Assembly (NCBI GenBank): GCA_029850565.1
Contig: JARCRR010000124.1
Location: 1-34,020 of the forward strand
Reading direction: 5' to 3'
Source of the DNA: Gallionella sp.
GTDB taxonomy: Bacteria > Pseudomonadota > Gammaproteobacteria > Burkholderiales > Gallionellaceae
DNA: 34,020 nt
A program made the position numbers and the translations under genes. Position 1 is the stretch's first letter, and every line of letters starts with the position of its first letter. The notes under the pieces were generated by a model that was not told where the DNA came from, made no database searches, and saw only the letters and a list, made by a program, of their open reading frames with translations. Below, one piece after another: positions 4,685-20,841 of this stretch.

Positions 4685-4704
4685 GCGATACCGCAGGTAA
4701 TGAG

Positions 4705-4734
4705 AACGGAGCCCTGGTGGCTCCGTTTTCTTTT
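4705..4734 (+). terminator. Rho-independent terminator after glnA
   Basis: Perfect 9-bp stem AACGGAGCC / GGCTCCGTT with loop CTGGT, followed by TTCTTTT. Confidence 0.85.
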
Positions 4735-7947: not shown

Positions 7948-8829
7948 CTAGCGTTTCTTACCTGCCTTCTTCCACACACCCGTGATGGGCTGCTGATCCT
8001 TGCTCTCACCCAAGATGGACAGACCATACATCTCCGAAAGCGTGCGTAGCAGCGTGTAGTGGTTGATGCGCTGCGCTGGCTTACCCGGCTTCACCATCTC
8101 ACCCACAAAGATCGTCGCGATACGATTCCCTTCGCGGCCATCATCTTCGTCGAAGGTGACTATGAGCAGACTGTTGTGTGTCATCGCCCACTGCGCATAA
8201 GCCTCGATGTTTTGTTTCAGCCACGCATCCCCTTCCTCAATGCTGCCATCATGCATGTCGTTGCGCTGATCGGGCACCACCAGAGATACGGTCGGTAGTT
8301 GCGAAAAATCTTGCGGGAACGCCGTGAAGGGTTGGTTGAATGCGGCCAGCTCTTTCCAATTCGCTGCAGGATTATGTTTGCGCATGTACGCACCGTAGCG
8401 ACACCCTTCGTAGCCCGCCTCGGGCAGTGACTCCGAATAGCTGACGAAGCCCAACCCTTTCTCGATAAGCGCCCCACCCAGATTCTCGCCCTTCAATTCG
8501 AGCGGGCAGGCGTTGCTGCTGATGCCGCGCGTCGTGCCGGAGAACAGCGCGAGATAGTTAGGCTGACTGGGATGGGTGACGCCATACGAGTTGGTGAACA
8601 GCACACCGCGTTGCGCGAGGGCATTGATGTAAGGCGCATCAGCATTACCGATGATCTTGGAATAGCCCCGATTCTCTTCCACCACGATGACGATGTGATC
8701 GGGGCGCGGCAAAGTGATTTCTGCCGCAATAGCCGATTGAGCGACACAAAAAAACGCAAACGCGAACAGCGACTTCACGAACTCACTCATCTTTATCGGC
8801 AGTTGGTGCAGGTGCGTCCGCTTCATCAA
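7948..8829 (-). CDS. Secreted phosphoesterase / acid phosphatase family protein
   Basis: Signal-like N-terminus (a later start MSEFVKSLFAFAFF also possible), PDHIVIVVEENRGYSKIIG...SYGVTHPSQPNYLALFSG...FDEDDGREGNRIATIFVG. Confidence 0.85.
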   Translation of the reverse strand: MMKRTHLHQLPIKMSEFVKSLFAFAFFCVAQSAIAAEITLPRPDHIVIVVEENRGYSKIIGNADAPYINALAQRGVLFTNSYGVTHPSQPNYLALFSGTTRGISSNACPLELKGENLGGALIEKGLGFVSYSESLPEAGYEGCRYGAYMRKHNPAANWKELAAFNQPFTAFPQDFSQLPTVSLVVPDQRNDMHDGSIEEGDAWLKQNIEAYAQWAMTHNSLLIVTFDEDDGREGNRIATIFVGEMVKPGKPAQRINHYTLLRTLSEMYGLSILGESKDQQPITGVWKKAGKKR

Positions 8830-15427: not shown

Positions 15428-15502
15428 GGAAACGGTTGTTATCTGTTTGCCCTTTGCTAAACTTCGGCCACAACGATCAATGACCAAAGGTTGCATGACA
15501 CC

Positions 15503-16633
15503 ATGCTGAACAAGCTCATCACACTTTCATTGCTGGCGCTTTTGAGCGCCTGCGGTGGCGGCAACAAACCTGCCGCCGGTGCGGCACCCGCCGCCCCGCC
15601 TCCACCCGAGGTCGAAGTGATAACCGTAGCCCCCGGCGATGCGACCTTCACGCAAGACCTGCCGGGACGTGTGCAGGCTTATCGCACGGCGCAAGTGCGT
15701 GCCCGTGTGGATGGCGTGGTGGAAGCGCGATTATTCAAAGAAGGTGGCGAGGTAAAAGCAGGAACGCAATTGTTCCGCATCGACGCACGCAGCTACCAGG
15801 CGACCGCCGAGGCCGCCAAAGCAGATGCAATGCTGGCGAAGGAGACCGTCGAGCGCTACAAGCGCCTGCGCGAGATCAACGGCATCAGCCAGCAAGACCT
15901 CGATCTGGCGCAGAACAAAGCCAAGCAAGCCGAGGCTGCGCGCATCAAAGCGGAAGAAGATTTGGAGCACGCCAATGTGCCCGCCCCGCTTTCCGGCCAC
16001 ATCGGGCGCGCCCAAGTCACCGAGGGCGCATTGGTCAGCAAGAGTAGCGCGACCCTGCTCGCCACCATCGAGCAGCTCGATCCGGTCTACATCAATTTCA
16101 CCCAATCCAGTGCCGAGCTGTCGCGTTTGCGCCGCGCGGTTGCGACAGGCGTCATGAAGCGTGCCGACTCGGCCAAGGTCGAGTTGCTGCTCGAAGACGG
16201 CAGCATCTATACACAGACCGGCAACATCCACTTCAGCGATATGGCGGTCGACCCCTCCACCGGGTCGGTGGCTTTGCGCGCCGAGTTCCCCAATGCCAAG
16301 CGTGATCTGTTGCCCGGTATGTTCGTGCGCATCCGCTTCCCCGAAGCCATCGCCGAGAACGTCATCCGTGTTCCGCAACGCGCAGTGCAGGCGAACACAC
16401 AAGGACAATTCGTGATGGTGGTCGGCGCGGACGGCAAAGCCAATCCGCAACCGGTCAAGACGGGTGGCATGGCCTCCACCGACTTTGTCATCCTCAGCGG
16501 ACTCAAAGGCGGTGAGCAAGTCATCGTCAACGGCTTGCAGAAGGCACGCCCGGGCACCGTGGTGAAAGCCGTCCCCGTGGTCGAGACGATGAAGTTGGAC
16601 AAGCAGCTCACCGCTCCCGCACCTTCCAAGTAA
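15503..16633 (+). CDS. RND efflux periplasmic adaptor (MexA/AcrA family lipoprotein)
   Basis: Lipobox LLALLSACGGG; VEVITVAPGDATFTQDLPGRVQAYRTAQVRARVDGVVEARLFKEGGEVKAGTQLFRID. Confidence 0.96.
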   Translation: MLNKLITLSLLALLSACGGGNKPAAGAAPAAPPPPEVEVITVAPGDATFTQDLPGRVQAYRTAQVRARVDGVVEARLFKEGGEVKAGTQLFRIDARSYQATAEAAKADAMLAKETVERYKRLREINGISQQDLDLAQNKAKQAEAARIKAEEDLEHANVPAPLSGHIGRAQVTEGALVSKSSATLLATIEQLDPVYINFTQSSAELSRLRRAVATGVMKRADSAKVELLLEDGSIYTQTGNIHFSDMAVDPSTGSVALRAEFPNAKRDLLPGMFVRIRFPEAIAENVIRVPQRAVQANTQGQFVMVVGADGKANPQPVKTGGMASTDFVILSGLKGGEQVIVNGLQKARPGTVVKAVPVVETMKLDKQLTAPAPSK

Positions 16634-16637
16634 ACCC

Positions 16638-19600
16638 ATGTTCGCCAAATTCTTCATCGACCGCCCCATCTTCGCCTGGGTCATCGCCATCATCATCCTG
16701 ATGGCGGGGGTGCTCGCTTTGCGCGGCTTGCCCGTGACACAGTACCCGCCCGTCGCGCCACCTGCACTTTCTGTTTCCATCAACTATCCCGGCGCTTCGG
16801 CACAGGTCATCGAAGAGACCGCCATCGCGCTCATCGAGCAGGAACTGAACGGCGTCGAGAACCTGCTCTACATGGAATCGGCTTCCGAGTTGGGTAGCGG
16901 CAGCATCACGCTGACCTACGAGACGGGTACCGACCTCAACCTCGCCTCCGTCGAAGCGCAGAACCGCGTGAAGCGCGTCGAGGCGCGTCTGCCGGAAGAG
17001 GTGCGCCGACTCGGCATCACCACCAACAAATCGGCGCGCAACTATGTGATGTTCGTCGCGCTCATCTCGCCGGACAAGACATACGACAGCGTGGGTCTGG
17101 GCAGCTTCGTGAGCGCCAGCGTGATCGACAGCATCAAGCGTGTGCCGGGCGTGGGCGAAGCGCTGATGTTCGGCACCGAATACTCGATGCGCCTGTGGCT
17201 CAAGCCGGATCGTTTGCAGGCGTATGGCCTGTCCCCTGCCGATGTCTCCAAAGCGGTGCGTGCACAGAACACGCAACTGGCGATGGGCGAGCTGGGGCAA
17301 CTGCCTGCCGCACCGGGGCAACAGCTCAACGCCGTGATCGTCACGCGCAGTCGCTTGGCCTCGGTGGAGGAGTTCGGCAACGTCATCATCCGCACCAATC
17401 CCGATGGCTCCAGCTTGCGCGTGAAGGATGTCGCCCGTGTCGAACTGGGCGCGCAGGATTACGCGCGCCAATCGCGTCTGGATGGTCAGCCCTCCGCCAA
17501 CATCGCCATCCGTTTGGCTCCCGGTGCGAACGCGCTGGAAACGGTTGGCGCGGTGAAGGCGCGCATGGGCGAACTGGAGAAGAGCTTCCCCAAGGGAGTG
17601 AGTTGGCTGGTGCCGTATGACACCTCGAAGTTCATCGACATCTCCATCAAAGAAGTGCTGAAGAGTCTGGCCGAGGCGCTGTTGCTCGTGGTGCTGGTGA
17701 TGTACCTGTTCCTCGGCAACATCCGCGCCACCATCATTCCCACCATCGTCATTCCCGTCGCACTCGTGGGTGCCTTGGTCGGCCTGTATCTGCTGGGCTA
17801 TTCCATCAACGTGCTGACGCTGTTCGCGATGGTGCTCGCCATCGGTATCGTGGTGGACGATGCCATCGTGGTGGTAGAGAACGTGGAGCGCATCATGGCG
17901 ACGGAAGGATTGTCGCCGCGCGACGCCACGCGCAAGGCGATGGATCAGATCATCGGCGCCATCATCGCCATCACCTTGGTGCTGTCGGCGGTGTTCATCC
18001 CGATGTCGCTGTTCGGCGGCTCCACGGGCGCGATCTATCGCCAGTTCGCCGTGACGCTGTTGCTGACCATGGGCTTCTCGGCCTTGATGGCGGTGACGCT
18101 CACCCCCGCGCTGTGTGCTTCCATCTTGAAGAAGGAGGATGCAAAACCGCACGGCCCCTTTGGCTTGTTCTTTGAGAAGGTGACCCAGCGCTACACACGA
18201 AGCATCAACTCAGTGGTGCGCAAGACCGCGCGTTATCTGGTGATCTATGTGGTCATCATCATCGCCATGGGTTGGCTGTTCACCAAGTTGCCGGGCAGCT
18301 TCCTGCCGGAAGAAGACCAAGGCTATTTCGTCAACGTCATCCAACTGCCTGCGGGTGCCACACAGGAACGCACGATGGAAGTGTTGGAGCAAGTCGAACA
18401 GCACTACCTCAAGCTGCCTGAAGTGGAACACGTAGTAGCGGTAGCGGGCTTCTCCTTCTTCGGTCGCGGGCAGAACGCCGCTATCGCTTTCGTGCGTCTG
18501 AAAGGTTGGGATGTGCGCCCCGAAAAGGAAAGCAGCGCTCCCTCGCTAGTGCGCAAAGCGAACAAGGAGTTGTCGCGCATCAAACAGGCGATGATCTTCG
18601 CCATCAACCCGCCCTCCATCCCCGAGCTATCTGCCACGGGCGGTTTCGATTTCCGCTTGCAAGACCGTAGCGGACAAGGGCGCGAGAAGTTGTTGGAAGC
18701 ACGCAACATGATGTTGGGCATGACCGCACAGAACCCCGCGTTGGCAGGTGTGCGCCCAGAAGGACAAGAAGCCGGCCCACAACTATTGCTGGACATCGAC
18801 CGCCTCAAAGCGGAAGCACTCGGCGTCTCCTCCGCCGATCTGAACGAGACCTTGCAATCGCTGTTGGGCGTGGCCTACATCAACGACTTCGTGCGGCAGG
18901 GACGTATCTTGCGCGTGCAGATGCAAGCCGAGGCTGATTCGCGCCGCACACCGGAAGACATCCTCAAGGTCACCGTGCGCAACAACAAGGGCGGCATGGT
19001 ACCGCTGTCCGAGTTGGCGACCCCGCGCTGGACCGTCGGCTCGCCCAAATTGGATCGCTACAACGGCATCCCTTCGATGAAGATCTCGGGTGCGGCCGCA
19101 CCGGGTCGCAGCACCGGCGAAGCGATGGCCGCGATGGCAGACATCGCGCAGAAGCTGCCGCCCGGTTTCGGCTATGAATGGTCGGCCACTTCACGCGAGG
19201 AGATGATGTCTGGCGCGCAAGCACCGTTGCTGTTCGCCATCTCGTTGTTCGTGGTGTTCCTGTGTCTGGCGGCGTTGTACGAGAGCTGGTCTATCCCATT
19301 CGCCGTCATGCTGGTGGTACCGCTCGGCATCTTCGGCGCGATCCTGGCGGTGAATCTACGTGGCTTGCCCAACGACATCTACTTCAAGGTCGGCCTCATC
19401 GCCATCATCGGTCTGTCGGCGAAGAACGCCATCCTGATCATCGAGTTCGCGCGCAAGTTGCAAGACGAGGGGATGAAACTCATCGACGCCACCGTCGAAG
19501 CGTGCCGCCTGCGTTTCCGTCCTATCCTGATGACCTCCATCGCCTTCATCGCGGGCGTGTCGCCGCTGGCGTTCTCCACCGGTGCTGGCGCGCAAAGCCG

Positions 19601-19742
19601 CCACGCCATCGGCACCGGTGTGATGGGCGGCATGTTGGCCGCCACCGTGCTGGCGGTGTTCCTCGTGCCGGTGTTCTTCGTGGTGGTGCGCAAGTTCTTC
19701 CCCGGGCATGCGCGCAATGAGAGTGAATACGAAGACGACTAG
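16638..19742 (+). CDS. RND efflux pump inner-membrane transporter (HAE1, AcrB/MexB family)
   Basis: 1034 aa; [62 protein letters not shown]-type N-terminus, [18 protein letters not shown]. Confidence 0.97.
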   Translation: [1034 protein letters not shown]

Positions 19743-19769
19743 GCCGGTCTGAAGCAGGCTCAATAGCGT

Positions 19770-19800
19770 TACAATTCCGGCTCATCCATTGAGCCGGAAT
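19770..19800 (+). promoter_or_regulatory. pyrC leader: -10-like TACAAT (19770-19775) overlapping a perfect hairpin/palindrome (19774-19800)
   Basis: ATTCCGGCTCA (19774-19784) / TCCAT loop / TGAGCCGGAAT (19790-19800), 11/11 bp stem, ending 6 nt before the pyrC ATG; no T-tract follows. Confidence 0.7.
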
Positions 19801-19806
19801 CATTTC

Positions 19807-20841
19807 ATGCAACAACTCACCCTTACCCGCCCCGACGACTGGCACTTGCACCTGCGCGATGATGCGCTGATGGCCTCGGTGCTGCCCGACACCGCACGCC
19901 AGTTCGCGCGCGCCATCGTTATGCCCAATCTGCGCCCGCCCGTTACCACCACCGCGCAGGCCGTGGCCTACCGCGAGCGCATCCTCGCTGCACTACCTGC
20001 TGGCATGAAGTTCGAGCCGCTGATGACGCTGTACCTCACCGACAACACCAGCGCGGAAGAGATCAAGAAAGCCAAAGCCAGCGGTGTGGTGCATGCGGTG
20101 AAGCTGTACCCCGCAGGGGCGACCACCAACTCCGACGCGGGGGTCACCGATCTGCGCAAGACCTACGCCGCACTGGAAGAGATGCAACGCTGCGGCATGC
20201 CGTTCCTGGTGCATGGTGAAGTGACCGCCAGCGACATCGACATCTTCGACCGCGAAGCCGTGTTCATCGAACGCGTGATGCAACCGCTGTTGAAAGACCT
20301 GCCGAACCTGCGCGTGGTGTTCGAACACATCACCACCAAAGATGCCGCACAGTTCGTAACCGAAGCGCCGGACACCATCGCCGCCACGCTCACCCCGCAA
20401 CACCTGCTCTACAACCGCAACGCCATGCTGGTCGGCGGCATCCGCCCACACTTCTACTGCCTGCCGATTCTCAAACGCGAAACACACCGCGAAGCTTTGG
20501 TGAAAGCCGCCACCAGCGGCAGCAAAAAATTCTTCCTCGGCACCGACAGCGCCCCGCACGCGCAACACACCAAAGAGAACGCCTGCGGCTGCGCCGGATG
20601 CTACAGTGCGCACAACGCCATCGAACTGTATGCCGAAGCTTTCGAGGCTGCGGGTGCGTTGGATAAACTCGAAGCATTCGCGAGTTTCTACGGCGCGGAT
20701 TACTACGGCCTACCGCGCAACAAAGAGACCATCACCTTGCGTAAGGAAGAGTGGCAAGTGCCTGCGTCGGTGGGGTTTGGCGAGCATCAGCTTGTGCCAC
20801 TAAGGGCGGGGGAGAAGATGAAGTGGAAGTTGGTGGAATGA
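19807..20841 (+). CDS. pyrC: Dihydroorotase (class II, PyrC)
   Basis: [48 protein letters not shown]...[22 protein letters not shown]. Confidence 0.97.

Follow-up and report, generated by a model that had tools for sequence, protein, structure and literature searches.

Start-site switching at enterobacterial pyrC (and pyrD) was reportedly described by Wilson et al. 1992. The transposase genes of IS10 and IS50 are known to be protected from read-through. Such protection is also stated for the IS200 transposase gene in a review (PMC3196728), and the start-site mechanism of E. coli pyrC has been restated (PMC7818426). In bacteriophage T4, long, upstream-started transcripts of gene e (lysozyme), and also of soc, 49, and I-TevI, fold a stem that hides the Shine-Dalgarno (SD) sequence, and the late promoters of gene e sit in the DNA encoding the 5' strand of this stem (PMC3014915). 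No direct match was found among the publications searched for chromosomal cases of a promoter within a hairpin.

The Gallionellaceae group considered here consists of iron-oxidizing freshwater bacteria. The window, that is, the whole stretch of 34,020 nucleotides of DNA that was analyzed, belongs to a Gallionellaceae MAG whose closest named relatives are Sideroxydans and Gallionella MAGs. In the window, the stop codon of an RND efflux gene and the ATG of pyrC are separated by 64 nt, and both genes are on the same strand. The features of this locus are as follows.

15491 to 16633, + strand: membrane-fusion protein gene of the efflux operon (open reading frame; Pfam HlyD_D23)
16638 to 19742, + strand: RND efflux transporter gene, AcrB/ACR_tran (open reading frame; Pfam PF00873, E = 0)
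19770 to 19775, + strand: TACAAT, the −10-like element of the pyrC promoter, conserved in about 54 distinct Gallionellaceae pyrC upstream regions
19774 to 19784, + strand: left (5') arm of the hairpin, ATTCCGGCTCA, sharing the last 2 nt of TACAAT (from folding and covariation)
19781 to 19784, + strand: predicted local transcription start zone, inside the left arm, 6-9 nt past the −10 (start-site rule of PMC5730371)
19785 to 19789, + strand: loop, TCCAT
19790 to 19800, + strand: right (3') arm, TGAGCCGGAAT
19796 to 19799, + strand: GGAA, a weak SD-like sequence within the lower stem (right arm)
19807 to 20841, + strand: pyrC, encoding dihydroorotase (344 amino acids)

The likeness of the pyrC hairpin to T4 gene e consists in an SD within the stem, a predicted local promoter at the DNA of the 5' strand, and a structure that covaries in a few relatives. 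On the other hand, gene e represents a temporal phage switch that was experimentally shown (about 100-fold) and uses a T4 late promoter, whereas the block at pyrC is predicted only, concerns a bacterial housekeeping gene, and would involve a sigma-70-like −10. The likeness to the transposase genes lies in a hairpin before the start codon, which there keeps expression from incoming outside transcripts low, through termination and SD occlusion; its purpose in those genes, however, is to limit transposition, and pyrC is not mobile. Enterobacterial pyrC is the same gene and has an identical TCCGGC/GCCGGA core with an SD in the right arm. However, the left arm in the window is 5 nt nearer the −10 than that of E. 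coli pyrC, and stem and loop measure 11 bp and 5 nt compared with 6 bp and 15 nt in E. coli.

Hairpin and predicted transcription start upstream of pyrC

The original prediction had described a perfect 11-bp hairpin that overlaps TACAAT, includes GGAA, and stops 6 nt short of the ATG. This was confirmed in the sequence: an exact 11-bp stem (19774-19784/19790-19800) encloses a 5-nt loop, and CATTTC separates the right arm from the ATG at 19807. This tail also agrees with the previously noted absence of a T-tract after the hairpin. The full stem was present in the minimum-free-energy fold, with a z value of −2.6 (111 nt). Among perfect stems of at least 11 bp with a short loop, the pyrC hairpin was the only one in the window, and windows resampled with the same dinucleotide content contained 0.07 on average. 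The hairpin motif is a single copy in the 2.2-Mb draft genome, allowing up to 3 mismatches, and an Rfam scan of the window gave no match at the gathering threshold. In 300 kb of a related genome (G014), comparable perfect hairpins appeared in 39 register-counted rows, representing roughly 25-30 distinct hairpins that were mostly terminators or repeats. Since such stems are not rare in these genomes, the pyrC hairpin is remarkable for its position and not for its strength: its unusual feature is the placement across the −10, the predicted start site, and the SD. Elsewhere in the window, a 15-nt inverted repeat at positions 4699-4733 (87% complementary, with a 5-nt loop and a T-rich right end) is located at a gene end and is terminator-like.

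RNA polymerase prefers to start 7 nt past the −10, and starts that precede this position by more than 1 nt or follow it by more than 2 nt are rare (PMC5730371). The start predicted at 19781-19784 lies within the left arm, so that most of the left arm would be absent from pyrC's own mRNA. In the folding predictions, RNA from this start keeps at most about 3-4 bp of the stem, in agreement with the small remnant expected earlier. The predicted probability that GGAA is unpaired was 0.33-0.38 in RNA from 19781-19784 and 0.01-0.02 in RNA from 19720-19770. Hypothetical starts at 19777-19780 gave stems of 5-8 bp with GGAA mostly unpaired (P about 0.3-0.5). Under the predicted start, positions 19774-19780, including the bases that pair with GGAA, are transcribed only in RNA begun further upstream. 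Consistent with the translational insulator that had been proposed as one possible role, only upstream-started RNA is predicted to fold the full hairpin, and the occlusion of the SD in such RNA is a computed result.

Distribution and base pairing among relatives

The pyrC upstream regions of about 145 Gallionellaceae were compared, together with samples at the order and class level. Two main layouts of the pyrC promoter were found in Gallionellaceae, and they alternate even among close relatives. In layout A (L003, L010, L012, L015, L017-L019, L021, L025, L027, L029, L031, and others), a TAGAAT/TAAAAT/GACAAT-like box is located about 5-10 nt before the ATG, the TAGAAT/TAAAAT form at about 8 nt, and a near-leaderless pyrC mRNA is predicted; this layout was also found in many Burkholderiales. 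In layout B, represented by 54 distinct sequences, TACAAT precedes the ATG by 33-38 nt, with AGCCGGAA close to the start codon. Most layout-B sequences lack the hairpin, and the right-arm segment AGCCGGAA is widespread, including in relatives without the hairpin. A strong stem was found only in the window clade (L001, L004, L005, L006, and L009), the L007/L016/L026 group, L028, and L112, and weaker stems were found in L013, L011, L036, and L037. L017 and L003 belong to the window's own pyrC clade yet have no hairpin, and their −10 adjoins the ATG. Because the tree, built on 390 nt of pyrC, has poor resolution, the number of hairpin origins is not fixed. An ancient pyrC hairpin common to gammaproteobacteria was considered and rejected, since E. 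coli alone had a comparable stem over the −10 among about 80 order- and class-level upstream regions.

The upstream neighbors of pyrC differ among the TACAAT-type relatives and include, for example, DNA polymerase I, an exonuclease, and transporters, as named from sequences alone. In L112, L036, L193, and L130, an outer-membrane efflux factor followed by a TetR-type regulator, likewise named from their sequences, lies upstream of pyrC. Because efflux genes lie beside pyrC in several relatives and the RND gene does so in others, the adjacency of the efflux operon and pyrC may be an old synteny in Gallionellaceae. A same-strand gene less than 100 nt upstream was present at 8 of the 9 strong-hairpin loci and at 7 of the 45 others; when lineages were collapsed, the counts were 4/4 and 7/45, respectively (p = 0.0016).

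Several individual loci showed further features. The homologous stem of L016 and L026 runs into TTTTTTC, forming a canonical intrinsic terminator ending at the pyrC start codon. L005 has an insertion of about 80 nt with TTCCCGCGAAGGCGGGAA and GATTCCCGCCTTCGCGGGAATGAC repeats between the RND stop codon and the pyrC −10, and its pyrC hairpin is still perfect. L095, from the MAG of a gammaproteobacterium (Competibacteraceae), contains TATAATTCCGC...GCGGAA upstream of pyrC, with a left arm that directly follows the −10 and is complementary to the SD region. In L294, at about 8346-8390 on the − strand, a perfect 12-bp hairpin (AGTTCCTGCCAG/CTGGCAGGAACT) is located 13 nt before an ATG, with a GGGAG SD outside the stem.

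In the 9 distinct hairpin sequences, 93.9% of the cells were paired, and 10 cells and 3 pairs were changed on both sides. The covariation score was 0.288 compared with 0.100 for shuffled sequences (0/500), a comparison that involves few lineages and shuffles correcting relatedness only partly. Sliding the pairing register resulted in a far lower score in every register. When own arms were compared with swapped arms in all 54 TACAAT-type sequences, none of 2000 permutations equaled the own-arm match; with 8 representative lineages, the match was 22.3 for own arms and 18.1 for swapped arms (0/2000). No own-arm effect was observed in the 42 TACAAT-type sequences without a strong hairpin (755/2000), and these sequences therefore gave no sign of a family-wide residual hairpin. 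Base composition alone is thus not the cause of the match.

Compared with the family consensus, the left arm in the window is altered at positions 1, 5, 7, 8, and 9 after TACAAT, and each of these alterations creates a pair. At pair 3, where the family has a C-A mismatch, the window clade has U-A (left C to T), the L007 clade has C-G (right A to G), and L112 has U-G. The covariation of the stem in relatives, which had been put forward as a test of the hairpin, was present. The stem, its conservation pattern, its covariation, and its placement with respect to the −10 and the SD are all observed directly. The shift of the left arm toward pairing, together with the three pairs changed on both sides, suggests that the hairpin structure is probably under selection; this is graded as probable and not as proven, because few lineages contribute to the counts and the tree is weak.

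Predicted translational block and rival explanations

From the sequence, the best explanation of the hairpin, which we hold with about even confidence, is an anti-read-through (isoform-specific) translational block of pyrC. RNA polymerase at the local TACAAT would begin inside the left arm, so that the ribosome-binding site would be free in a pyrC leader of about 23-26 nt, and RNA polymerase running in from the RND efflux operon would copy the whole inverted repeat. The read-through RNA would fold into a stem of about −19 kcal/mol in which GGAA is buried and whose end lies 6 nt before the AUG. The efflux-operon RNA would then yield little dihydroorotase, and pyrC would still need its own promoter for expression. 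Three parts of this model are inferred: where transcription starts, that read-through RNA exists, and that translation is affected. Seven TACAAT-type relatives (L036, L193, L130, L138, L146, L162, and L199) have a close same-strand upstream gene and no strong hairpin, which, together with the absence of this layout from L017 and L003, indicates that such a block would be dispensable. Further points against the block are that the upstream gene in L112 encodes a TetR regulator and not an RND pump, that GGAA is weak as an SD, and that its predicted accessibility in the local RNA is just about 0.35.

The hairpin could instead form the 3' end of the RND efflux mRNA, either as a weak intrinsic terminator or as a stem protecting a trimmed Rho-terminated RNA, so that the insulation would be transcriptional; the overlap with the pyrC promoter would then arise because the 64-nt gap offers no other room. 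This role is ranked as the main rival because two relatives carry a T6 tract, and we regard it as possible but rather unlikely. Like intrinsic terminators that overlap a downstream promoter, the locus has a stable stem in a short intergenic gap, and there is no other hairpin between the RND stop codon and pyrC. The stem is followed by TTTTTT in L016 and L026 and by TTCTT in L007, as in a canonical terminator, and in related genomes, perfect stems of similar size mostly resemble terminators or repeats. However, the T-tract is not conserved with the stem, the tails being CATTTC in the window, ACCCC in L028, AACCC in L013, and CACTTC in L112. In addition, the hairpin was not called by the terminator scan, and it differs from such terminators in extending through the SD, which a pure 3'-end role does not need.

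A switch of the enterobacterial pyrC type, in which start choice is nucleotide-sensitive and longer, CTP-started transcripts fold an SD-blocking hairpin, appears improbable here, even though the gene is the same and TCCGGC-15 nt-GCCGGA before the ATG of E. coli pyrC equals a six-base stem in the window. TCCGG is located 1-5 nt past TACAAT in the window, outside the usual start range, compared with 6-10 nt past TATCCT in E. coli, so that ordinary start choice cannot include or exclude the SD-pairing strand; this spacing speaks against the pyrimidine switch that had been suggested as an alternative to the insulator. Starts at 19777-19780 would yield stems of 5-8 bp, but these leave GGAA largely unpaired. 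The hairpin relatives lack a −10-like hexamer 5 nt upstream of TCCGG, and the lower stem, which is impossible in the local RNA, covaries at pair 3. An alternative −10 permitting starts at TCCGG was also sought, and no conserved candidate was found.

Binding of a dimeric repressor to the palindrome spanning the −10 and the start site, as in the DNA operator also envisaged in the original prediction, is improbable. The near-perfect inverted repeat is indeed at a classical operator position (−10 and +1), and a CCGGC-n11-GCCGG core is retained in several lineages. However, the genome contains one copy at up to 3 mismatches and no repeated operator or element, and the right arm is retained where the left arm is missing. 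Furthermore, both members of inner pairs are replaced (C-G to G-C to A-T) and the loop varies in length, and these two properties are more in keeping with base pairing than with a protein making fixed contacts. Fortuitous, functionless complementarity in a few lineages between the C-rich stretch after the −10 and CCGGAA near the ATG has just as little probability, since the stem extends to 11 perfect pairs and separate lineages show compensatory changes, although the family consensus already pairs at 5 of 7 positions near the SD and most relatives and the wider class have no hairpin.

Overall, the roles proposed in the original prediction are partly supported: an insulator would fit the locus, a pyrimidine switch is not supported, and an operator is unlikely.

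Proposed insulation of pyrC from upstream transcription

In the best reading, the pyrC hairpin would be a T4 gene e-type translational block, here on a housekeeping gene. We tentatively propose, with somewhat less than even confidence, that Gallionellaceae evolved a promoter-embedded anti-SD strand from the pre-existing SD segment, probably more than once. Translation of pyrC would then depend on the promoter from which its RNA came, and this chromosomal counterpart of the T4 gene e arrangement would act as an isoform filter that insulates pyrC from efflux-pump transcription. In compact bacterial genomes, only tens of bases often separate one gene from the next, and it is seldom known how a gene is protected from the transcription of its neighbor. 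If the proposed block is true, insulation would come cheaply, through evolution of an anti-SD strand from the few bases that separate the −10 from the start site, and the same pyrC hairpin core could arise under a logic unlike that of the textbook enterobacterial switch. It would also provide a signature with which other genomes can be screened.
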